64,000 bases of DNA, taken from contig JAPTJF010000011.1 of the NCBI GenBank assembly GCA_029339195.1, positions 1 through 64,000 on the forward strand, given 5' to 3'. A program made the position numbers and the translations under genes. The DNA comes from Micractinium sp. NFX-FRZ. Its lineage: Eukaryota > Chlorophyta > Trebouxiophyceae > Chlorellales > Chlorellaceae. Positions 26,307 to 42,700 of this stretch are shown here, one piece after another (positions within the stretch are counted from its first letter, which is position 1; each line of letters begins with the position of its first letter). The notes under the pieces were generated by a model that worked only from the letters and a program-made list of their open reading frames with translations, was not told the DNA's origin and ran no database searches.

Positions 26307-27437
26307 TCACTTCTGCGGCTGGCACGGTGCCTGCAGCTTCTTTGCCTTCTGCCGACGCAGAAGGCTTGGCGCCCCCAAGGCACACGTCGCGGCGCCGACC
26401 AGTATGCCGACCGTCGCTCCAGCGACAAAGGCACGGAAGGACTTCTTCTGCTTTGGTGCCGCATCCTGCCGCGGCAGCGTGAGAGATGACGCTTGCAGCA
26501 CTGGTGCCTGCAGCGCTGGCGATGCCTGCCGCCGCTGCGGTGCGCCCTGCTGCGCCTCCCGCAGCTCCTGCTGCAGCCGCTGGTTGGCGTTCTGCTGTCT
26601 TGTCAGCCTCCCAGCCAGGTCATTGGCCCGGTTGGTCATCCTGTCCCGCTCCTGCTCGGCCGCCTGGCGCGCGATCAGCTCTCGCTCGACCATCCGGAAG
26701 GCGTTGACGGTGGCGAGCTCGCAAAAAATGTTGAGTGCTGCCTGTAGTGCCTCCATTGGCAGCTCCTGATGACCTGGCCCCAGCCTTGCCACCACCTCCT
26801 CGAGCGGCACTGCAGCGGGGGGCAGGGGGCAGGGACGGGCAGCGTGGAGGCGTGGAGGCGTGCTTGTGGCAGCAGGGGAGGATGCAGCCGTGCAGGGATG
26901 GGGCGGGCTGGCAGAGAGCAAGGCCGGAGCAGCAGCATTGGGCAAGTTGAGAGAGAGGCAGCAGCCATGGGATGCAGGCGGCGGCGGTAGTAGATGCTGG
27001 CACCAGCGACGTACCGCTCAGGTAGCCGCGCCACACTTGGTGGCAGATCTCGCACTGCCCCGCATCCCCGCGGTTGTTCAGGAAGAGCCACTGCCGCAGG
27101 CAGCGCTGGTGCACCGGTGTCCGGCACGCGCACGGCTGCATCATGCCGCCGCCTGCAGCAGAGTGAGCGTTCATGCCTCGTCAGGCAGGCCCAACGTGGG
27201 CGGTGGGGCGGTGGGGCGGCGGCGGCGGTGGGCGGCGGCGGTGCGGCGACAGCCTCGGTTCAGCCCTCCTCCCCATCATGCACGTCGGCGCACTTCTTCA
27301 TCAATACAACTGCCTTCGCAGCATCACGAGCAGCCGGGAGCCCCACCCCGAGGCGCACCCTCCTCGGCGTCCGCAGCCTCGTGGCAATATCGGCATATCT
27401 CTTGCTCATCTCCGCCGTTCTCTGAAAGGGCGGCCAT
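26307..27437 (-). CDS. RING-CH (RINGv, MARCH-type) membrane E3 ubiquitin ligase
   Basis: Three exons in transcript order: 27359-27437, 27015-27152, 26307-26809; 239 residues. The N-terminal RINGv domain has the C4HC3 zinc pattern at C15, C18, C33, C35, H40, C43, C59 and C62, with the hallmark Trp after the third pair (RQW, 45-47). Such domains bind an E2 enzyme and transfer ubiquitin to membrane proteins. A coiled-coil stretch rich in Arg, Gln and Glu follows (about residues 105-165). One hydrophobic segment near the C-terminus (AFVAGATVGILVGAATCALG) is probably a single membrane anchor, which differs from the two-helix layout of many animal MARCH proteins. The exon 1/2 join splits the RING between zinc ligands and is phase 1. 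The start ATGGCC has a good context; the frame is open upstream. Confidence 0.85.
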
Positions 27438-27810: not shown

Positions 27811-30800
27811 TCAGGCGCGCTGGGTGGCTTGTGCCATCCAGCTGCGCCACAGTGTGCTGCTGCACAGCGTGCCCCGGCACCCCACCACCACCACCGCCCG
27901 CATGGCGCGCGTCAGCGCCACGTTCAGGCGGCGGCTGGAGTCGCAGAAGCCCAGCCGCCCGCAGCCGTTGGCCCGCACAGTGCTAATGACAATGACGTCC
28001 TGCGGGCAGGCAGCAGCATGGGGAAGCACAGCGGGGATAGCGTGTTCCCTCCGTCCCCCTCTCAGCACCAGGGCTCTGCAAGCACCAGGCTGTGGCTTTG
28101 CTCCCCCATGCAGGCCAGGCAAACATGCCCAACGTGTTACCGCCCTTGCGTTCACACCGGCCACTGCCACTCCACTGCCGTTGATGAAGAGTGTCTCACC
28201 TTCTCCCGCCCCTGGAAAGCATCCACTGTTGAGATCTCCAGCTCAGGCCACGTCTGCTGCGTCCGCCTGCGCAGCAGCTCTGCCTGGGCACGATACGGGG
28301 TGACCACTCCCACTGCTGACGCCCCGAGCGTAGAGCCCAGCTGTGATGCACCCCTGCTGCCCCTGCTGCCGCTGTGCCTGCTGAGCAGCTGGCTGAGCAG
28401 GTCAACCACAGCATCTGCCTCCCGAGCGTTGTGCTTGGAGCTCCCAATGGATTCCCGCCCGTCAGGCACATCGATGAAAGTGACGGGGGCTGTGAGGGGC
28501 TGTGGCGGCACACTGGCCGCGGTGCTAGCGCTGCTGCGCAGCCTGCCGCCATAAAAAGTCTGGTTTGGGAAGGCGGCGATGGCGGGGTGCATGCGGTACT
28601 GCGTGTCCAGCAGCTGCGGCGGTACTGTACTGCTGCACCGCTCAAACAGAGAGATGTGCAGCCCGTGCGCCTGCACAGCCCAGGGGATGTGCGGCACAAA
28701 GCCACGGGCGTAAGCGAGGCTGTCGTCCAGGGCACTAAGCATGAGGCGCGTCAGAGCAGGTGGGAACACTGTTGTTAGGCTGGCAAGCAGGTGTCTAGGC
28801 TGCCACGTGCATGTCAGCCCTGAAGCTCACCTGCCCCTCCTGGGTGACCACAGGCCCCAGCTGCTGGTGGTCCCCCACCAGGATGCAGCTGGCGGCTGGC
28901 GCCCGCATGACGGGCACCAGAGAGCAGGGCTCGGTGACCTGCCAGGTGGATGCGTGCTGTGTTCACTGTTAGGCACAGCCTGCAGGTTGCAGAGAGCCAG
29001 CATCTGCAGCCTGCTTCTGCGGTGACCTGGCCCCATGGGTCTGGCACGCAGGTTCAACAAGCGCTCAGCTGCAGCGCTGCAGGCACCGGTTGCTTGATCC
29101 AGCAAGAGACAGCACCCAGGGTGGAGAGCAGGGTGGGCAGCTGCGGCCACCAACCTGAGACGCTTCATCCACAATCACGGCGTTGAAGCGGCAGCCGGTA
29201 AGCAGCGCCGAGCCAGCGCCGGTGCAGGTGGTGAAGACAGCCAGGGCGCCGCGCAGCGCTTTGCGCACACGGCGCGAGTCGAAGCCGTGCGGCGTGCGCA
29301 GGCCCTCCTGAGCCTCCAGGCAATACCTGGGGGAGGGTGACGTGAGGTGGGGTGAACTCAAAACTTCAGGAACCGAACAGGGCTGCCTGCCGTTGCATCA
29401 CGTTCAGTCAACATGTGCAGGAGGCAGACAATCGGGTGGGCAGCCCGGGCATGATCCCGGCGAGTTCCAATCCTCCGGCCGACAGCACACAGCGTCAGCC
29501 CATTGCAGCCGTCCGCCGGAGAGCAGGGAGGAACAGGGCGGGACGGACACCTACCTCTGCAGGTCTTTGCCCACGCTGGCGGCGTCGCCCACCCGCAGCA
29601 GGCGGCCCGGCTGCGCTTCGCTGGCATTGCTGCCCAGGCAGCTGAGCAGCTTGCGCAGGATGTTGTCCACAGCCACGTTGGTGCCAGCTGTCACCAGCAC
29701 CGGCTGCTGCTGCGCGCCTCCCTGGCCTGGCTGCCGCCGCTGGAACAGGCACATGAGGAGGTGCGCGATGGTGTGCGTCTGCATGCACAGCGGGTGAAGT
29801 GCACATCGTTACGCTCAGCTGGTGGGCACAGAGGCTGGTGTGCGGGTGGCTGCGCCCTGCCCTGTGGCTCCTCTGCAGCATGCAAGCCTTGCCAGTGGCG
29901 CCACAAGCGACCCCCGCCCTACCTTGCCGGTGCCTGGAGGGCCATGGATGAGAGTCAGAGGGCGTGTGGCAGCTGCTCGAATGGCGGCGAGCTGGCTGGC
30001 ATTGCATGCGGACGCTGCCGCGCTGGGCATGGGCGGCAGCTCAGATGCTGCAGCAGAGGGGCAGGGAAGAGTCTGCCAGCTCAGGGCATGCAATAGGCAT
30101 GGCTTCACACAGCGCGGGCAGTGTAATGTCGCACGAGGAGCAGGTTGATGGCTGCTTGGGATGGCGCAAAGAGTAAGGCCACAGGGGGGCTCCCACCCGA
30201 CTCATGCGGCACGTCCATGCGGCCAGCGGAGGCCCAGCTCTCCACCACCAGGCGGCAGGCTGCGCCCGCCTCCCGCTCAGCCTCCAGCCGGCACAGCGCC
30301 TCCATGCTGCGCTCGTACGTGGTCAGGTTGCACAGGCGGTGCAGCCGCCAAAGCCGCCCCTGCAGCGGCACGTTGCTTGGATGCCAAGCAAGCAGCTGGG
30401 GGAGCGGGGCGATGCCAGCAGCAGCTAGGCGATGCAAGGCAAGAAGGTGTATGAATTCCAGTTCATTTGGCAGCGCAAGTGCCAGCTGAACAGCACAGCG
30501 TCCACTTTTGTCGTACAAGCTGTTCACCTACCTGTGCATCGTGCGGCAGCCAGGGCAGCTCGACCTGCAGGGCAGGCAGACAGCGGGCAACCCCAGAGCT
30601 TTTCTAGCTGATACACAGCTCTGGTGGAAGGCGGCATGGGCAGCACAGCACAGCACCTGCCGGGCACGCCGGGTCGGCACCCAGAGCCAGCCACACCACT
30701 GCGCCCTGCCCCACCCACCGTCACTTCCATGATGCCTGATGCCAGCACCACGCCCTCCACGCAGAACGAGGGCAGCTGCAGGCCAATGTTGTGGGTGTGT

Positions 30801-33800
30801 GACTGAACTTGGAGTGCACTGAGTGCGACTCGCAGTGCAGATGCGCCAGGCTGGCGTGCGCTTAGCACACAGCAGAGGGGCTCTCTGAGGCTCTCTCCAT
30901 TTCCTATCCCATGGAGCAGCCACTTGCCTGGGCTTTGGCCGCCGGGGTGCGCATGTCGGACAGGCGCACAAGGTCCCCCACCTGCGGCACGGGGTTTGGA
31001 GAAAGCATGAGACAGCGAGAGGCACGGGTATGGGGTGGCTAAGTGGCGCAGGGACAGAGTGAGCGTGGGCTGCTGGATCACGCCTGCCAGCACACCGAGG
31101 GCAGCAGCCCTCAGAGATGCAGGCCATCATGGCGCTCACCTGCAGGCGGGCCTGGTCAGAGAAGGCCATGCCCCGGCTGCGGAACAGCCTGAGCACAGCG
31201 CTGGTGGGTGCCGTGCTGTCGCCGCCCCACAGACCGGCAGCCGCGACGCTGGGCGCGCCTGCAGCGGCAGGGGACACCGGGAGTACAGAGGCTGGGTGGT
31301 GCACGGCACCGAGCCCCGAGCGCAGTGCCAGGTGCCAGCGCATGCAGCGCAGCCTCAACCCAAATAATTGCACCAGGCACGCTACAGGGCATATCACCTG
31401 CTGCTTCCTGCGCGGATGCCCTCCCCGGCTCCCCTGCTGCCTCCAGGTTTGACAGCAGCAGCGCCTTGCCGCTGGCCAGCCCCCCCTGCACGGCGCCCGT
31501 GCCACCTGGCTGCCCCCAGCGCTGCTCGCTGACAGGGGCCACTGCTGACGTGGCGGGGCGCAGCTGAGGCGGCACAAAGTCCCCCAGGGTGCGCTCAGCA
31601 GGGGCATGAGCTGGCGTGCTGGCGGGCGGGTAGAGCGCTGCGGCACCTGGCATGCCCTCAGCCGCCAGCTCAGCATCGACCTGCAGTGCCTGCTCAGCTT
31701 CCTGGATCTCTGCCAGCAAATCCAGCGTCAGCAGGTGCCCCCAGTGAGCCACATACGCTTCCACGGACTGCTCAAATGACGGTGCCTGCTGCGACGGCAC
31801 CGACTGAGGCAGGTGAGAGCTGGGTGCCGCCGGGCTGAAGTGCTGGTGCAGGCAGTCCAATGCACGCAGGGCTGCTGCACGGTCTGGGTAGCAGCGGATG
31901 CAGGCTTGCAGCAGCTCCCGCAGCAGGGCAGTCGACCTGGGCAGCTGATTAAAGTGCTGGAGCATGGAAGCTAAGAGGTCTGCTCACAGAAGGGGGGAGT
32001 GATGTGGCTGGGGTCATGACCAGGAAAGCCCATCAATCGGGAGGCCTGCAAGCTCAGTTGCCAGAAATGCACTGGCAGCTGTGGCCGGGCGCGGGCTTGG
32101 CACTCATCCCTGCCTTGCCAACTGTTCAACCCACCTGCAGCTCCAGCCTCGCTGCTGCTTGCTACGGCAGCCTTCACTAGCAGAACTGCAGCTGAGGCTG
32201 GCAGCGAGGCAGCTGTACTGCTGCCACCTCCGATGCCGTTCCCGCTGCTGCCGCTGCTGCTGCTTGCGCTGCTGCCAGGGCCACTGCTGTCGGCCCCGCC
32301 GCCAGGGGTGGTGCTGGCCTGCAGGGTGTCCCAGATGAGGATGCAAACTGCTGGGCAGGAACCCAGCAGCCCAGTGGACGCCAGCAGGTCATTCAGGGCG
32401 AGTAGCCTGCACAGCAAAAGAGAGGGTACGGGGTGCAGAGTTGCCTTGTGCAGGGTGCTGTGAAGTTGGAAGGTTGAGAGCATTGCGTGCTGGCTGACGC
32501 ACCGTGTCGGCCGGGAGGGGCAGAAGTGCTTCAGTGCGCGCTGCATCAGCAGAGCCGCGGTGCTTGGGCAGCGCAGCTGGGCGGCAGCGCGCATCAAGTG
32601 CTCCCATGTGGCAGCGGAGACCTCGACCCAGGCGCCTGCCTGCACCCATGAAACCGGCACGCAGGTAGCTTCATAGGGTGTGCTGTCATGCAGGAATGGT
32701 GGTGCTGAACACTCCAGATTCAGTGTTTGAACGTGCTTCCCAACATGCTTTCGCACATGCTTCCCCACATGCTTCCCCACATGCTCATGCTTCCCCACAT
32801 GCTCCCAAACATACTTGTACCACCTGCCACTGAGTGTGGTACGTAGCCACCCACCTGGTCCAGCAGCTGCACCGCGCCCAGCAGCTTAAGCTCTCCAGCC
32901 AACCGCACAGCCAAGGTCTCGCACTCTGCCAGCGCAGCAGGGCGGAGCGCCAGCCGCGAGCCGCTGCTGCCCCGAACCGCGCCCGCTGCCTGGTCGATTT
33001 GCTGTGTGTCCTCTTCGGCCGTTGCCTGCATGGCGGGCACCAGCCGCCCCTGATCTGCATGTAGGGCAGCAGCCAGGGCGCTGCTAGCACTGCTGCCCCC
33101 TGCGCCTGCCTCCTCAGCCTCCTCCAGCCAGAATGACTCCTCCGTGCCGGCCTCTCGCAGGCTGGCAGTCAGCAGGGGGCGAGCCTCTGAGACGACGTAC
33201 AGCTCAAAGCTGTGCAGGGCTGTCTTCCTCACTTGCTGGATGCTGCCACGCTTGTATGCCTGACCATCGAACTCTGTCACAGCTATGCTGGCCAGCACCG
33301 GGCGGTGCATGAGCTCTGCTGCAGGGGGCGGGCCCGTCTGCCAGCTGCCGCTGCTGCCTCTGCCGCCACGGCCGCCCCTGCCACCTCTGCCGCCTCCGCC
33401 TCTGCCTCTGCCCCACCCGCCGGCGCCTGCACTGCCCCGGTGCTGTCCCGTGCCCTGGCTGCCGGCTGCACGCGTCTGGTCTGCCAGCAGCAGGAACGAC
33501 TGCCCAGTGTTGTGGTTCCAATACACCTGGAGCCTCGTGGAGCTGAGGGAGGCCTGCAGCCCAGGGGGACCAAAGGAGTGTGGTCGCCTTTCGGCCATGC
33601 TTTGGCTCCCGCTGCACACAACCGGCACTGGTACTGGGCATGGCTGGGGCGTGCTTCTGCGGCAATGCATTGGGCATTCTGTGGAGCAAGCCCTTCCCTA
33701 GCCGCTAACCTGCACAACCCACCACACTGCCTGCTCACCTGCAGGCTCTGGCGGTGGTGCAGCAGCTCCATCTTGAGGCGCAGGGGCCCAGCAAACAGAA

Positions 33801-36800
33801 AGGCCAGGCAGTCCCGCCCCAGCTCCACAACCTCGCCCGGCAGCAGGGGCTGGGTGAGGTAGAGCGCCACGGTCTGCAGGCTGGCGGGGGGCTGCCCCAC
33901 GCGCAGCACCAGAAGCTTGCGCTGGAAGGCGGCCAGCCCGGTGTGGATGCTGTGGAAGGCGAGCTCGTCTGAGAGGGCACCTGCACGGTTGAAAGAGGGC
34001 CATGTAGGAAGAAAGCAAGAAGGTGGGCTGGCAGGCAGAGTGTGGATGCTGCGGAAGGCAAGCTTGTCACCAGAGGGTGTGCAGGGCAGTTCATTTGGAA
34101 GGGAGATGGGCAGGCACTGGCAGGTAGGCGGCCAGGGCAGGCCAGTGCGGGTGAGGTGGGAAGAAAGCTCGCCATTGGGGCATGCCAACGGAGGTGCAGC
34201 ATGGGTCAGGATGCATGGTAGCTGACTGGTACCTTTGGCTTGATTTCCTGCTGGCTTCCTCAACCCCACGCCCTCGGGCTGTAATCTTCTTTTGCTTTTT
34301 CGCTGTGCATGAGTCACTGCCCCACCGCCAACTTGCCTGCGCAGAGCAGCTTCCAGTGCAGCTGCTGCTCACCCAGCTGGAATGCTGCCACCTCATCCCG
34401 CGTCAGCAGCACCGACTGGTGCAGGGCGTTGTACACCATGCTGGGCGGCACGCCTGCCTGAATGGCCCAGCGCTTCTGCACCAACAAGAGAGGCAGAGTG
34501 AGCAGCGGGGGGACGAGGTGCTGAGCAGGAGACGTCACGAGAGCGCACCGTCCTCCGTCTGGGGCGGCACGCCCACCAGCGCTGACCAGCATCAACTCAT
34601 CCGTGGATGTTGCAGGGTGGAGCTGCGGCACAGACGGCACTGGTCCCAATGGTAACCCTCCCCTGTAAGCAACGTACCCTACCCCGCCTCTCATCCTTGT
34701 GCAGCCCCGCACCCGCCTGCAGGTGATCCAGCTGGGCAAAGTCGATGAACAGAGCCAGCTCCTGGAGAGGGGCTCCCTCCCTCCTGCAGGGCAGAAGCGT
34801 GTGCACGCGTGCATGCCTGCCGGGTGAGTGCGCCAGACCAGTCGGATGAACAGCAGTAGTTGAGCTGCCGGCCCCTGCTCCCCGAATGCAACTCGCGCCC
34901 AACCGTAGCCCAGCTCGCGCCCAGCCGCACCTGCACCACGCAGCGCACAGGCGGAGGAGCTCGTACTCGCTGACGCACACATCCCTGCCGCCTAGCAGCC
35001 CCTGGATGCTGTCTGCATCCAGGCTGGCCACCGCCTGAGCTCTGGCAGATGCCAGCTCCAGCCGGCTGCGCCGGTGCGCTGCCAGGGCATCCGAAGCCCG
35101 GCGTAACAGCACGTTCCACACTCGGCCAGCAATGAGGGTGCGCTGCTCCGGGCTGTCTTCAGAAGGGTCTGCAGATTGGTGGGAGGTTAGCCAGCATGTG
35201 AAACAGCGGCCGGTGGTACAGGCAGCAGGCAGCCACCACCCATTGCCATGTGTACCCAAGGGGTCAGGCACGGCAAGAGGTCCAGGCTGCCCACCTGGCG
35301 GCTTCAGACGCTCCGGCAGCGCATCCTTCACCCCCGTGCTGACAGCATCCACCCCCCGAGCAAACAGCAGCGCCAGGGAGCAGCACTGCATGGGAGGATC
35401 ATGTGTCAGCAGCCATTTGGCAACACACAACAGAGGGTGCAAGCAACGCGTTTGCTGCGCTTCAACCGCTTGCAGCAGCTGCCCGCAATAGGCCGTGCTG
35501 GAAGGCTAACAGGCACCCTGCCGAGCTTGAGCCTCAGCCAACTGCCTGCGGGCCAACTGACCTGGTCGCACCCCGGTCCCTCCAGGTCAGCCCATCGCAG
35601 GTACCAGCTGTTCATGCGTGCCAACAGACGGTTGTCAAAGGCGGCAAAGTAGCGAGCCAGCTGCTGCTGGCTGGCCTGGCTGGCGGCTGGGGAGCGGGCC
35701 GGTGGGTACAGCGGTGCGAGGTGCAGGCGGGTGCGGGCTGGGATGAGGCCGGGCTCCCAGCTGACAAAGAACTGGTCGCCGTCCAGGTCGCCTGCACAGC
35801 ATGGCACAGCATGACCAAAGCATGTGCGTGCGAGGGTGGTGCGGCAGCAGAGTCGTGGCGTAGCACAGCGTGCATGGCCGTTTGCCCAACACAACACGCG
35901 GCCAGCGTGCATGGCCGTTTGCCCAACACAACACAACGCAGCGCTGCTAGCACAGCACAGCACAGCACACTGTGCGGCAGCCTGACAGTGCGCCTCGCAG
36001 CGTGGTTCACCCCAGCAGCCGCGTTCGCTGCTAAGGATGTGCATTGCACACACTCCCTAAGGCACTCACCGCCCGAGGACTCGTCGGCATGTGGCCTGCG
36101 CCCCAGCCTGGGCAGCACCAGGGCATCTCGCAGGCCCCGGCAGGCCATTTTGTCGACCGCCCGCAGCACCAGCACGTCCCCTAGGTGGTAGCAGGGGTTG
36201 CGCACCTGTGGGGGCGGAAGGGGCGGAGGGACGGATGGGTAAGAGAACAGCTGAGAACGACTAGACGAGACGAGACAAGTGCGGGCGCACACATGGCAGG
36301 GAGGCCTTGGAAGGGCGGTGGTGTGCGAGTGCGAGAGTTGGCAGACTGGTTGGCCCTTGCAGATGCAAGCCTTTGTGTGTATACAAGACTTGCACGCCAG
36401 GCTTTAAACCCAGGCAGCCAGCCATCCGGGTGCAAGCTCACCACCACTACAAATGTGTCGGTCAGCACGCAGGGCGCCCCATCAATGGTGGGCTGGAAGA
36501 AGCACTCGCCATACCGCAGCGGCTGCAGCAGTTCGGGGGAGCCTGCTGCTGCCGCCGCCGCTTCAGCAGCAGCTGCAGAAGCATCCCTGCGCCGCTGCGC
36601 TAACATGCTCCGGCCAGCGCCGCTGCTGCTGCTGCTGCCCTCACAGCATGCTGCCAGCAGTTCGTCGTCGTCTGTGGGGTCGCAAATGCCGTACACCAGG
36701 CGGGACTTTGGCACCAACACCCGCACCCGGCTGCTCTCCTCGCCCGCCTCTGCGGCAGCGCCGTCAGCGGCAGCATCCGCCTGCAGCTGCGGTGCGCCCG

Positions 36801-39583
36801 CCTCTGCTGCCTGCTGCTGCCTGCCTGCCTCGCCCTCGCCGCTGGCTGTCGGGGCAAGCGGTGGGAGGCGGGGCGCGCGCTGCTTGGCGCGGCAGGCCTC
36901 CATCTCTTTGCCTTGGATGCGCCTCAGGATGGGCAGCACCTGGGCATCAATGCCGTGCTCCACAAGGTGCTCCAGTGCCTCCACCTGCTGGCAAGGCAAG
37001 CGCGGGGTGCAGCAAGACGTGGTGGTCAAGCTGCCAGCATGCCAGGGCAAGTAAGTCTTCAGCTCGAGCTGCGCTGCTCACGTGTCTGTGCCCCACCAAC
37101 AACCCCCATCAACCCACCCTCGTACCTCATTGTTGGCAGCCAGGAGTGTGAAGGCTGCCTGCACGTCGCATGTGGCAGCCGCCACGAGGCGCAGGTAGTC
37201 AGCCTGCAGGCGCAGTAGCTCCTGGTCGGGCACGCCCAGCCCGGAAAGAAGCATCACTGTCTGCAGCACGGGGGGCGGGGCAGGGCGGCACGGGGCTGGG
37301 AGTCGGGCGCACCAAGCCCTGACAGCTGCATTGAGGTCTGCAGTTGGAGAGGGAGGGCGGTGGGGCGGGGCGGGCAACACAGAGGGCAGATTGATGCTGC
37401 TGGGCATGCAGGCGTGGTGCCTCACGACTCTGGGCACCCAGCAGGGCAGGTGGCATTCAGCAACGTGTCGAGTGTTGCAAACAGAGTCAATGCTCCCACG
37501 CCTTCCATCTCCCTCCCAGACCCCTGGCAGAGATTGGACCAACCCCTGCCCCTGCCTGCCTGCATGTTGAGGTAGCCGAATCGGTACGGCTGGCTGAAGC
37601 CAACCAGGCCCAGCACGCCGCTCACGCTGTCCCTCCCCCCGCCTCCCGTGCTGCTGCCGCTGCTGCCCCCTGCGCCTCTTCTAACCCCAGCACTGCCACT
37701 GCTCCCCCCGCTGCCCCCGCTGCCACTGCCAATCTCCTGTTGCTTCTGCAGCGGCTGCTGCTTCTCTCGCGGTGGCGCTTGCGGAGGCTGCGGCGGTGGC
37801 GGCTCCTTGAACTTGCTCATGCTCTCACGCAGCAGCAGGTCATAAGAGGAGCCGTCCAGGGAGGCCACCTGCACCGTGCCCTTGAAGCCTCGGAAGCGAA
37901 TCTGCAGGCGCAATGGCGGTCATCGGTTGAGAACGACAGTCCGAAGGAGTGAGTTGGAAGGGTGCACAGGGCTGCAGCGAGGCGAATGAAGAGCATATGG
38001 CGGCTGCAGCAGGCACATCAACATGCAGCAATCGCATGCAGGGATAGCAAAAAGACAGTGCCAGTTGAGCATCTGCAGAGTGCAGCACAGCGCAGCGCAG
38101 CGCAGTGCAGCACAGTGCAGCACAGCACAGCTTCCCCACCTGCAGCACGCTGGGCACGTAGGGCTCCCCCCTGAACGCGATGCCCTGCTGCCGCGCAATG
38201 CGCTTGGCCAGCGCCAGGCTGCAGTAGCCGCAGCCGTCGGTGAAGGTGAACCCGTTGCGCTCCACGTCGCCGATCAGCTTAAACCTGACAGCGATACGGG
38301 ACGGGCAGGGAGAGACAGGGCAAGAGTGTGGAGAGTAGGGGGCTGGGTGCCTCCCACAGGGTCACACTGGGGTGCGTAACTCGGACAGCGGGAGGACGGG
38401 CAGATTGGGGACAAGTCAGGTGGGCGAGGGCGGGCAACCGGGGAGCCGAAAGTGGTCCAACAGGGGGAGGCTGGAGGGAGGGCAGGGTCATGTGGGCGAG
38501 GGTGACGCAACACAGGCAAGCTAGGTGGCCAAGCCCTGCCCAGGGCCAGCACAGCCTGCTTCTGCCATGCGCACCCATTCCCTCTTCCCAAATGCACCAA
38601 CCTGATTGGCTGCGCCAGCCCTTGGATGGGGGTGATGGTGGAGAAGAGCAGGCCGATGCGCTTTGCCCGCTTGGCTGTGCTGTCGATGCGTGCAAAGCAG
38701 CCCCACTGCTCCAGCAGGGCCGCAGCCTCTGCCGGGCCGCTGCAGCGGTACAGCACGCAGGTACGGCTCTGCAGCTGGCTGTTGCTCTGCCCCAGGTAGT
38801 GGTAGCGCTGCCCGTCAATGAGCACCCCAGCCGCCAGCACCTGCATGCAGCGGGCACGGAGACAGCTGCATCAACACCCTTGCTTGGTCAAAGGTGTATT
38901 AACTGCATGCGGCAGTGTTGGCACCCTGCAGGCACGGCAGCACGCACCGGCGTGCAGCCGCCCGGCACCCTCACTTCAGCTGGTCCGCTACTCTGCTCAA
39001 GCCCTGCCCGTACCTTTTCGATGTATGTTGCACTCTCCTTGGCGCTGCCCAGCCAGAGGCGGGAGAAGGAGATGATGGCAAAGCGGTCGGCAGGGTAGGC
39101 CAGCAGCAGGCGGTTCACTGGGTACCCCCGGTTCACCTGAAGCAGAGAGAGAGGCAGTGGCCAGTCCCGATGGGGCGGGGCACGCACTCCGCGCTTGCAT
39201 TCAACCTTGACGAGTGCTGCAGTCAAGCTTCTAAGGCATCCTGAGAAGCAGCGGCAGCGCCACTAGCTGGTGCTCCTGCCAGCCCATTGCCTGGCTTCAC
39301 AAGGTGCGCAACCGCTGCGGTGCACCCCGCCTGCTGTCATCTCCGGCTGCCCACCCACCGTCAGCTCGATGCAGGTGTCTGCCACGGAAATGTACTTGAC
39401 CGCCGTGCCGCCCGCCTCTTGGCCGCCACGCCGCCGGTTGCCTGCTGCACTGCTGAGCTCGCTCTGCAGCAGTGGACTGAAGCTCAGCTGCAGAGCGTTG
39501 TTCTCAGCATTGTTGGGCACAACGAGCACTCTAGAGGGCCGGGGTGCGCCCCCCGGCCTCCCTCCTGCCACGGTTGCAGCCAT
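27811..39583 (-). CDS. RNA-dependent RNA polymerase fused to a UPF1-like SF1 helicase
   Basis: 29 exons in transcript order: 39359-39583, 39014-39136, 38602-38840, 38140-38284, 37560-37901, 37126-37260, 36442-36984, 36070-36205, 35562-35791, 35295-35385, 34931-35168, 34717-34783, 34373-34475, 33739-33980, 32855-33553, 32503-32639, 32135-32406, 31398-31979, 31140-31258, 30928-30981, 30719-30802, 30532-30564, 30135-30395, 29923-30072, 29555-29778, 29155-29326, 28831-28938, 28200-28670, 27811-27999; 2137 residues. Residues about 1-850 are a eukaryotic RdRP of the RDR family. They contain FTFTDGCGYCS, PYVPSVLQIRFRGFKG, VRNPCYHLGDVLVLRAVD, the catalytic aspartate motif GGDLDGDQFFVSWEPGLIPA (DLDGD at 631-635) and LFARGVDAVSTGV. 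A middle region of unknown fold follows, with an RGG box at about 1000-1022. Residues about 1700-2137 are an SF1B helicase: GPPGTGKT (1744-1751), VDEASQ (1877-1882), LVGDHQQLGPV, LDTQYRMHP (1939-1947), VDAFQGREKD and RRLNVALTRA. It should make and remodel double-stranded RNA in silencing. Introns 5, 12 and 20 need GC donors. Start ATG lies in GCAGCCATGGCT. Confidence 0.88.
32731..32816. repeat. Minisatellite of CATGCTTCCCCA-like units
   Basis: About seven imperfect 10-16 bp units related to CACATGCTTCCC are in tandem inside intron 15 of the RdRP-helicase gene. They are open in several frames on both strands, which creates spurious reading frames. Confidence 0.8.
34040..34080. repeat. Intronic copy of an exon 5' edge (RdRP-helicase exon 14)
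   Basis: On the minus strand this intron stretch reads close to SGDKLAFRSIHT, while exon 14 (parent at about 33941-33980) reads LSDELAFHSIHT. The copy lies upstream of the real acceptor, inside intron 13. Confidence 0.7.
35866..35934. repeat. 32-bp perfect direct repeat in an intron
   Basis: Positions 35866-35897 and 35903-35934 are identical, separated by 5 bp. They lie inside intron 8 of the RdRP-helicase gene, just before the exon with the catalytic DLDGD motif. Confidence 0.85.
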
Positions 39584-39750: not shown

Positions 39751-42700
39751 ATGGTGACTGCGATGTGGACTGCCGTCCTGTGCGGTGCTGTGCTGCTGGC
39801 ATGGCTGTGCCGTGGTGCCCTGGCTAACTTGCAGCGCCTAGCCCGCTTCAAACTCTTCCGCAACCCGGCTGTGGCCGCGGAGGCCCTTACTCAGAGCACG
39901 GATGTCACTGTGTGGGATATGGCCGGCTTTGGACGCGTGGTGTTTACCAGGAGGTGGGTCTGGCAGACGAGCAGGCACCCCTGTGCCGCCGCGGCTCAGC
40001 AGTCCCTTGGCCACCAGCCGGACAGCACCAAAATGGCGTGCTTGCGTCTTCTGCATGGCAGGGGACGGTGAACAACATGCGGGTGGGGGACGGGGCCACA
40101 TGGAGTGCATAGCTGCCGAGCGCTTTGCTGCCGCTCGCCCTCCCGTCCTTTACCCCTGCAGCGCCGCTGTGGCCCGCCAGGTCTTCACCACCACGCGCTT
40201 CAAGTTTGTGAACAGGCTGGGAAGCGAGTGGGGCCTGAGGCAGCTGGGCATGTACCATCAGGTGATTAAACGCGTGGGTGTGGGCAGATGGCATGAATGA
40301 CAGCACTTCGGTGCCCGAGTTGCCATGCCAAACCACCTCCTGGCACGCCTGCTGTGCATGCTGGGCTGGGTCGGGGTCACCCAGATGCCCACCGCATCCC
40401 CAAACACGCATGCTTCCTGGCACACTTGCCGCAACTGCTCGTCCTCGTGTTTGCAGGGCATCATCTGGAATAACGATGAGGCCAGCTGGATGCAGCAGAG
40501 GAAGTGGTTCGAAGCAGGTGCGGGGGTGAAAGCGCCCTGGGGCGCCACGCGAGCAGTGCCTCCCTCCAGTGGATGCGCCTCGTATGGGCAGCAGCCCCAG
40601 CAGCGCGCCTGCTGGCACATGCGTGCTAGATCACTCCTCAACTGGATGCTTGCTGGCTCTGTCCTGTTCATATCTAACAGGGCCCACCTGCGTTGTAACC
40701 CTGCTGCTTGCCCGCTCACCCGCTGCCTGCTCGTCTCCCTGCCTGCCCGCCTGCAGCCGTCAAGTCTCCCAAGAGCAAGGGCATGGCGGGCAGCATTGCA
40801 GACATGTGCATCCTGGCTTTCCAGGTGGGCTGGGGCACAGCGGCATACAGCACGCAGGGCAGCTTGACGCCTCTTCTTCCCCCACAGTAGCTTTGCTCAG
40901 ACTGGGCCTCTCCCAGTGCGTCATCCCACTGCCTGAAACCGTGCCGGCTGGCCCATCCAGTGTGCATGCAGGCCACTGCCCAGCAGTTTGTCGGCGCACC
41001 TGGCCTGGCGGCTGCTGGCGCCGACACTGCCAGCAGCACCCCCACCACCCCCTCCCTCACCATCAGCGACGCCACCGACTTCATGCGCTGCTGCACCTTC
41101 CGCATCATCTGCGTCCTCGCCTTTGGCATCCCCGTGGAGCGCCTGGACGACCGCCTCACGCTGCGCAGCGTGCACGCCGTGACCGCATACTTTGAGGTGG
41201 GCATGGAGGTTGGCATGGGGCGGGGCAGAGCGCAGGGGAGGGGTGGTGTGCAGGGCGCTGGGCAGGGCCCCTGTGTGCAGGGCGCCTGCTGGCTTGATCG
41301 TGAGCTAGGCAGTAGTAAGCGCAGGTAGATTAGCGTGGTTTGGCAGATTTATGGGACCCTAGGCAGCAGTTTGGCGCCCCTACTGAAGCCTTTCTCCACC
41401 TGACTCGCTGCCTGATGCGCGCCTATTAACGCCCTCTGACGCGCAGGCATGGAACTTCTACCTGCTGCGCCCGTACTGGCTGCACCTCCTGCAGCTGCCC
41501 TTCTGCTGGCGCCAGCACCGCCGCCACCTGGCGGCGGTGGCAGCCCTTCAGCAGGTCACCCGGCACCTGATGCACCTGGGCAGCAGTTCCGCCTCCTCGC
41601 CCACCCCTGCCTCCTCACCCACCCCTGCCTCAGCCGCACCCCCGGGCAGCCGCCGCCTGTTTTTGGACAGAGTGCTACAGGCCCAGGGCAGGGGGGAGAT
41701 CAGCGAGGGGCAGGCGGTGCAGTGCTGCCTGGAGATGCTGCTGGCGGGGACTGATACGTCGTCGGTGACGCTGGGCTACCTGCTGGTGGCGCTGAGGGAC
41801 CAGCCGCTGCTGGAGGCGGCGCTGCGCCAGGTGGTGCTGCAGGCGCTCAGCGCAGGTGAGTCGCGGTGGGCAGTGAGGTGGGCAGTGAGGCGGTGAGGCG
41901 GTGGGCAGTGAGGCGGCCCACTGCGCTTGGCACCGCAGGGTGGAATGCTGGTGTGGCATGCGGGAGGCGGGCAAGCGCCGGAGCAGTACGCAGGGGAACG
42001 GGTTGGTGTGGTGTGGCATGCTGCGGCAGCACCAGCGGGTACAGCAGCGAGCCAGAACCTGACCCATTCCCCCTTTTTGATGGTCTGGCTGTTGCCCCCA
42101 ACCTGTCTGTGCAGGCGGCACCGAGGGAGGCCCCCTGCTGCGCTGCCTGGGCACCGCCCGCCTGCTCAAGCTGGAGGCCGCGCTGTACGAGGCCATGCGC
42201 TTCAAACCCGTGGGTCCCGTCTCCATCCGGCAGGTTGCCCGCAGCTGCCCCGCCGCCGGCGTCCGCCTGCTCCTGGGCGGCGGCGTGGAAAGCGGGGGCC
42301 AGGGGGAGGGAGGGCAGGGCAGCAAGGCCGGTAGCAAGGATGGCCAGGCCAGCGAGGGAAGCAAGCGTGGGGAGCAGGGCGGCAGCGTGTGCCTGCAGGC
42401 GGGGGACACCGTGATTGTGAATCTCGCCGGCATCCACCGGTGCCCCTTCGTCTTCCCCAGCCCCGGCCAGTTCGACCTGGCCAACTTCTGGCCCAGCCCC
42501 GCCGCCCAGCTGGGCGCCAACTTCTTCCCGTTTGGGGGCGGCCCCAAGGGCTGCGTGGGCAGCGACTTAGCCATGCTCGAGATGCAGGTACGTACCGGCA
42601 ATGCGTGTGTTAGAACTGCTGAAGCTGCACTTGCAAGCAAGCTGCATGCAGCGGCTGCTGGTTGATGGAAGGCGGCAGGGCACAGTTAGCGAGAGTGCAT

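Follow-up and report, generated by a model that had tools for sequence, protein, structure and literature searches.

Introduction

The closest described systems bring a helicase of superfamily 1 (SF1) together with a cellular RNA-dependent RNA polymerase (RdRP or RDR) in small-RNA amplification. Hrr1 acts with an RdRP in the fission yeast RdRP complex, and nematode ZNFX-1 co-precipitates the RdRP EGO-1 (PMC9276528). Polymerase and helicase are combined in one chain in RDRs with a DEAD-box helicase, as reported for Dictyostelium, Phytophthora, Hydra and Nematostella (PMC4791657). A eukaryotic RdRP with an AAA_12 domain has also been recorded, the lancelet protein BL02069, where AAA_12 is called an additional known domain in the legend of Fig 1B (PMC6396948). 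In its main text, a survey of small-RNA genes in green plants mentions RDR 27 times and helicase not at all (PMC7994812). Here we describe a gene of the green alga Micractinium sp. NFX-FRZ that encodes a cellular RDR and an SF1 helicase in a single polypeptide. It lies in the window, the 64,000-nucleotide stretch of DNA analysed (contig C11 of a 66 Mb genome in 838 contigs), where GC content varies from 0.615 to 0.678 in 2-kb steps.

Results

Gene model and domain organisation

The gene is read on the minus strand from an ATG at 39583 to a TGA stop at 27813-27811 (-), and the model made from the genome sequence has 30 exons in a single stop-free frame of 2057 aa. The preliminary description of this DNA had likewise proposed one continuous frame, which holds, and had counted 29 exons where our model has 30. 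The 25 GT-AG and four GC-AG introns range from 96 to 356 nt, with the GC donors (4 of 29 introns) at 37559, 34716, 34336 and 30927. A first set of introns was placed from reading frame and splice sites. The exons so defined served to train a small dynamic-programming model that solved the middle of the gene, and the result was adjusted against volvocine homologues. Exon 13 was extended to its GC donor (34337) because the added residues match the volvocine LHWKLL block. The version scanned with Pfam was a draft of 2042 aa. The features of the locus are as follows.

27811..39583, minus strand: whole gene, 30 exons, 2057 aa, in the order RDR, helical stretch, TLDc-fold domain with RGG loop, helical stretch, 1B-like barrel, SF1 helicase
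34931..39583, minus strand: exons 1-11, N-terminal part and catalytic core of a cellular RNA-dependent RNA polymerase (PF05183; Pfam E 3.7e-79, draft model)
35775..35789, minus strand: catalytic DLDGD motif, residues 631-635
34337..34783, minus strand: exons 12-13, helical stretch followed by the first part of the TLDc-fold domain; exon 13 ends at the GC donor 34337
33190..34421, minus strand: TLDc-fold connector domain, about residues 857-1087, exons 13-15, mapped from the Gonium copy
33356..33409, minus strand: RGG-rich run in a loop of the TLDc-fold domain; disorder is predicted for the corresponding loop in Gonium
31647..33189, minus strand: remainder of exon 15 and exons 16-18, weakly conserved and partly of low complexity (homologue alignment)
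31746-31729, minus strand: conserved HWGHLL block at the end of the exon 16-18 stretch (homologue alignment)
31398..31541, minus strand: exon 19, the least certain exon
30197..31258, minus strand: exons 20-24, VGDLVRL...EVTVELPWL (homologue alignment), which we take to resemble the 1B barrel of UPF1-group helicases
27811..30047, minus strand: exons 25-30, SF1 helicase core (AAA_11, AAA_12) with motifs I, Ia, II, III, IV, V and VI (Pfam and motifs)
29943-29926, minus strand: helicase motif GPPGTG (GPPGTGKT, residue 1664)
29169-29155, minus strand: helicase motif DEASQ (residue 1798)
28601-28587, minus strand: helicase motif QYRMH (QYRMHP, residue 1862)
28226-28203, minus strand: helicase motif VDAFQGRE (VDAFQGREK, residue 1987)
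27924-27904, minus strand: helicase motif VI, NVALTRA (residue 2021)

Exon-by-exon comparison of the draft model found aligned residues for exons 3-30 in Edaphochlamys, Pleodorina, Volvox and Gonium. Exon 1 is aligned in Edaphochlamys and Volvox only and exon 2 in Pleodorina as well, since the remaining volvocine gene models begin later. Alignment is weak over exons 16-20, at about 18-42% identity to homologues, and exon 19 has no counterpart in two cnidarian proteins in the same kind of alignment. The interval 31398-32406, singled out beforehand as the join most likely to separate two genes, is bridged by homologues in the draft-model comparison.

Several smaller features of the locus were recorded. 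The intron before exon 14 contains a 90% identical copy of a 29-nt stretch from the beginning of that exon (33941-33969, 34040-34068), perhaps a decayed exon duplication. Intron 8 holds an exact 32-nt tandem pair (35866-35934) and intron 15 an array with a 12-nt period (32729-32812). Neighbouring open frames match cytochrome P450 on the opposite strand (41387-41896, +; E 2.9e-10) and a RING-variant domain (26620-27180, -; E 7e-5).

The polymerase half matches PF05183 at 267.4 bits against a curated cut-off of 23.8 (E 3.7e-79), the match beginning at residue 83 of the draft. The DbDGD catalytic loop of RDRs is present as DLDGD at residues 631-635, as first described, and the polymerase part has the double-barrel fold of RDR2 and QDE-1. 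By domain, catalytic loop and fold the polymerase part is a cellular (eukaryotic) RDR, for which RNA synthesis is predicted. No PF00270 helicase ahead of the RdRP domain was listed at E <= 0.1 in the Pfam scan of the draft protein. At the other end of the chain AAA_11 (E 8.4e-42) and AAA_12 (E 3.1e-52) match far above cut-off in the 2042-aa draft. The motifs on which the preliminary description relied (DLDGD, GPPGTG, DEASQ, QYRMH and VDAFQGRE) were all recovered on the minus strand where it had placed them, and the domain search that it proposed for the joined protein returned RdRP, AAA_11 and AAA_12. Its central claim, an RDR core followed by a C-terminal SF1 helicase in one polypeptide, is borne out by the single frame, by Pfam and by homologues.

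A TLDc-fold connector between polymerase and helicase

The TLDc fold is known from oxidative-stress and V-ATPase proteins. The connector shows this fold in the Gonium copy examined, which was mapped onto the protein of the alga with 120 of 253 residues identical. A connector profile of 17 rows, 16 of them fused proteins, matches 116 of 116 fused proteins, including the 16 used to build it, and the placement of the connector between RDR and helicase is motif-confirmed in 114; the other two are without one of the two patterns. Nine RDR-only proteins are also matched, at least in part, and there is no match in 18 unfused helicases, in P0026-P0029 or in the canonical RDR of the alga. Taken alone, the connectors of algal and animal fused proteins match at E 7.9e-20 and 6.8e-7, against E 0.33 or worse for the controls (reversed sequences, a fungal RDR and the canonical RDR on C60). 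Over the whole region from DLDGD to Walker A the algal and animal proteins match at E 1.2e-27 and 6e-44, and no profile match is obtained when the stretch between connector and helicase is compared separately (E 0.8 and 0.93). Exon 15, which belongs to the connector, occurs only once in the genome of the alga.

In sequence the domain stands apart from the named TLD family. PF07534 (TLD) gives no Pfam sequence match to the connector and is not among the 25 of 80 families listed in one of the searches; the A3 profile search found no TLDc chain, and profile comparison with TLDc sequences is weak (E 0.0026, probability 4.6%). The connector shares its fold with the TLDc proteins OXR1/OXR2, NCOA7, mEAK7 and TBC1D24 but is without their Pfam TLD match. 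A BACK-like nature of the helical stretch ahead of the TLDc-fold domain was considered and set aside, as no Pfam match was found. Ordinary TLD-domain matches occur elsewhere in the alga (C60:165568-167118 and C140:110492-111040), separate from the fused gene. In the main text of a TLDc review the words 'polymerase' and 'helicase' each occur 0 times (PMC5614904).

Identity of the helicase

The full SF1 motif set (I, Ia, II, III, IV, V and VI) together with AAA_11 and AAA_12 places the helicase in the UPF1 group of SF1. Compared with solved structures, its core scores best with UPF1 (193.3 bits) and NAM7 (172), followed by SEN1 (160.6), SMUBP-2 (156.5), DNA2 (127.7), ZNFX1 (116.5) and Aquarius (66). 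A helicase of the Hrr1, ZNFX1 or SAD-3 type was rejected, ZNFX1 falling below UPF1, SEN1, SMUBP-2 and DNA2. The Pfam scan of the 2042-aa draft, with matches listed to E <= 0.1, did not include the UPF1 CH domain (PF09416). All PF09416 matches in the genome lie on contig C288, in the CH-domain exons of a separate gene, and an AAA_12 match is found there too. The helicase part thus belongs to the UPF1 group but is not UPF1 itself, and the earlier term 'UPF1-like' is sound as the name of a group only.

Distribution of the fusion

A first protein search with the whole draft protein gave 18 matches, all of them helicases without PF05183. Because low-complexity words seemed to fill the candidate list, the search was redone with residues 576-965 and 11 proteins matched. 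Five of these are volvocine proteins with RdRP and SF1 domains (Edaphochlamys, Pleodorina, Volvox reticuliferus, part of V. africanus, and Gonium), which answers the suggestion in the preliminary description that the same fusion be sought in other green algae. Two are cnidarian proteins with both domains (Dendronephthya and Hydractinia), three are RDRs with no helicase domain listed (two fungal by name), and one is a chytrid RDR with an SF2 helicase.

A profile search whose query combined both cnidarian proteins with two algal core pieces matched 750 proteins. Among the best 120, PF05183 occurs together with PF13086/PF13087 in 111, two of which (P0024 and P0025) were members of the query alignment, and alone in nine (799-987 aa). 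Because the search is set to proteins of 975-3102 aa and its ranking uses the whole profile, the listed matches are biased towards fusions and are uninformative on the frequency of unfused relatives. The animal sources named are cnidarians (corals among them), bivalves (clams among them), lancelets and sponges, for example Actinostola, Stylophora, Mercenaria, Mya, Dreissena, three Mytilus, three Branchiostoma, Ephydatia, Oopsacas and Dysidea. Some animal fused proteins, such as P0025 at residues 4-189, begin with an additional P-loop domain, AAA_28 (PF13521), which was seen in 9 of 23 proteins scanned.

Phylogeny of the two halves

Trees were sampled with 33 of the 116 fused proteins plus the query, giving 34 fused rows. 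In the RDR tree, from which P0028 and P0029 were left out, all 34 fused polymerase halves stand apart from five canonical RDRs with 100/100 support. The algal rows (100/99) are placed with a group of octocoral, stony-coral and lancelet proteins (95/83). An independent algal fusion arising from the alga's own canonical RDR was rejected by the AU test, whether constrained with C60 alone (p 9.9e-6) or with C60 and plant RDR2 (p 2.8e-6). The helicase tree recovers the algal group (98/99) and does not resolve the fused helicases as one group, the unfused rows needing three changes; a single grouping is not rejected (AU p 0.32) when 14 of the 18 unfused helicases are left out. In a 41-row tree P0028 (Phlyctochytrium), a chytrid RDR with an SF2 helicase (PF00270/PF00271) and without the connector, lies inside the fused clade on a long branch. 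P0001 (JGI, 1410 aa), an unfused SF1 helicase, groups weakly (85/87) with lancelet and coral fused helicases.

RNA-silencing components of the alga

The alga has a second RDR at C60:105353-109864, canonical by tree, with an RdRP match of 560 bits on a crude model and without helicase or connector. An Argonaute gene on contig C161, seen in a first search as one weak exon match (E 8.8e-4), gives a Piwi match of E 8.5e-85 on a crude gene model. A Dicer-dimer domain match lies on contig C635, and RNase III is represented by two loci with one domain match each (contigs C12 and C265). PAZ had no match in the genome, and the same search gave none in control genomes either.

Discussion

The arrangement of RDR, connector and helicase looks, from sequence comparison, like an old and widespread family of green algae and animals that has so far been overlooked. 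The one-chain architecture given in the preliminary description is right as far as it goes; it missed the conserved connector, and the fusion is widespread rather than peculiar to this alga. The mechanism it suggested, in which the helicase would provide or clear the template for dsRNA synthesis during silencing or quality control, is hypothetical.

Our best explanation of the locus is a single polypeptide of this old family in which the helicase delivers the polymerase to the RNA 3' end, a reading that we consider about evenly poised between right and wrong. The computations establish the single frame, the constant domain order, the common connector and the joint placement of fused polymerase halves in a tree; the mode of action is inferred. 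The helicase would load on RNA and move 5'->3', removing bound protein and structure. The tethered polymerase would thereby be carried to the 3' end, the start point of cellular RDRs, and copy back to the 5' end, the dsRNA product then passing to Dicer and Argonaute or to decay. The RGG loop and TLDc-fold domain may contribute RNA binding and placement in the cell. The whole would be a single-chain form of the partnership between the separate fission yeast proteins Rdp1 and Hrr1. UPF1-group helicases translocate 5'->3'. On the template, a motor of this polarity travels towards the 3' end and thus opposite to copying. It cannot tow the polymerase while synthesis proceeds, but it can strip the RNA and deliver a tethered polymerase to the start site. 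RDR2 initiates 1-2 nt inside template 3' ends and requires an accessible 3' end (PMC8713982). Known SF1 helicase-RdRP partnerships (Hrr1 and ZNFX-1, PMC9276528; RnhA, PMC5384783) make such cooperation plausible, and the Argonaute, Dicer-dimer domain and canonical RDR of the alga support a silencing setting. Phased siRNAs are reported in Volvox carteri together with one RdRP (PMC5093975), and speak for a role in RNAi if that RdRP is of the fused kind. Against delivery in the manner of Hrr1 or ZNFX1, the fused helicase is not of their type (193 bits with UPF1 vs 117 with ZNFX1). Furthermore, no secondary siRNAs are reported in lancelets though their RdRP BL02069 has AAA_12 (PMC6396948), which suggests that silencing may not be the general role of the family. 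Two further points weigh against the reading: the helicase tree does not resolve the fused helicases as one group, and the stretch between connector and helicase has no match when compared separately.

A role outside canonical RNAi is a possible if rather unlikely alternative. Here the polymerase would serve to break down selected mRNAs or to counter viruses, its copy marking the RNA for RNase III or another nuclease without the production of discrete small RNAs. Lancelets transcribe RdRP genes with intact sites despite their reported lack of secondary siRNAs (PMC6396948). A precedent for the route exists in Mucor, where RdRP-dependent, Dicer-independent mRNA degradation proceeds via the Sad-3/Hrr1-like SF1 helicase RnhA and an RNase III-like protein (PMC4395119, PMC5384783), although the Mucor helicase belongs to another SF1 subgroup. 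The two single-match RNase III genes of the alga would suit such a pathway and its separate canonical RDR could serve RNAi. However, the phased siRNAs of V. carteri would count against it, provided that the one RdRP reported there is fused (PMC5093975).

Less probable still is a helicase that acts on the product rather than on the template. It would move 5'->3' along the new or displaced strand and unwind the duplex behind or ahead of the polymerase, freeing the template for further rounds and yielding single-stranded antisense RNA. Geometry favours this arrangement, given the polarity of the group: on the product or non-template strand the motor would travel with the polymerase, on the template against it. 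The helicase core is also complete. Nematode-type short products were, however, looked for in lancelets and none were seen (PMC6396948). A mistaken join of two neighbouring genes, an RDR and a UPF1-like helicase, might be suspected from the weak conservation of exons 16-20 and the uncertainty of exon 19 but is very improbable, because exons 3-30 align in four volvocine proteins, both domains occur in the volvocine proteins and in 111 of the 120 best among 750 profile matches, and in 116 independent protein clusters a single chain unites RDR and connector with the helicase or a part of it.

Delivery of the polymerase by the helicase may be extended to a broader scenario, which we offer as speculation that is probably wrong in at least some of its parts. 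RDR, TLDc-fold domain and helicase would together be an ancestral eukaryotic machine, whose 5'->3' helicase drives the polymerase to RNA 3' ends and whose TLDc-fold domain places it at an endomembrane or V-ATPase-bearing compartment or ties it to oxidative stress. Its dsRNA would be a signal of defence or quality control, partly independent of Argonaute, and the machine would have survived in green algae and in several lineages of animals while disappearing from other groups. The occurrence of the family in both green algae and animals makes it possible to trace how old it is and where it was lost. In transformable algae polymerase, connector and helicase can be separated by mutation within one gene. 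The family also brings the TLDc fold next to RNA synthesis, for which we know of no earlier case. For animals it offers a specific protein on which to ask what RdRPs do, for example in lancelets, which are reported to be without RdRP-made small RNAs (PMC6396948).

Within the literature listings and passages covered, the one sign of an RDR with a C-terminal SF1 helicase was the AAA_12 remark on the lancelet protein (PMC6396948). The connector itself was unrecognised before and is unnamed in Pfam scans. While AAA_12 on a lancelet RdRP is therefore already in print, the literature searched describes neither the wide family nor its occurrence in green algae nor the TLDc-fold connector, the pairing of TLDc with RdRP lying outside that search. 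The passages covered from the lancelet study make no mention of a role for AAA_12, of the connector or of algae, and the word 'helicase' occurs 0 times in its main text (PMC6396948). Proteins of Branchiostoma floridae, lanceolatum and belcheri have the full order of RDR, connector and helicase, and BL02069 is possibly but not necessarily among them.

Among single-chain systems, oomycete and Dictyostelium RDRs carry an SF2 helicase at the N-terminus, unlike the SF1 helicase at the carboxyl end of the algal protein (PMC4791657), a contrast already drawn with slime moulds and oomycetes in the preliminary description. UPF1 and NAM7 are the solved structures most like the helicase core (193 and 172 bits); they are unlike the fused protein in that it is without a CH domain, the CH-domain exons of the alga being on another contig. 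We know of no TLDc-fold domain in the Hrr1 and ZNFX-1 systems, which differ further in consisting of separate proteins with a helicase of the ZNFX1 subgroup. The cooperation of polymerase and helicase in RNA silencing is known from separate proteins, and in the family described here both reside in one chain.
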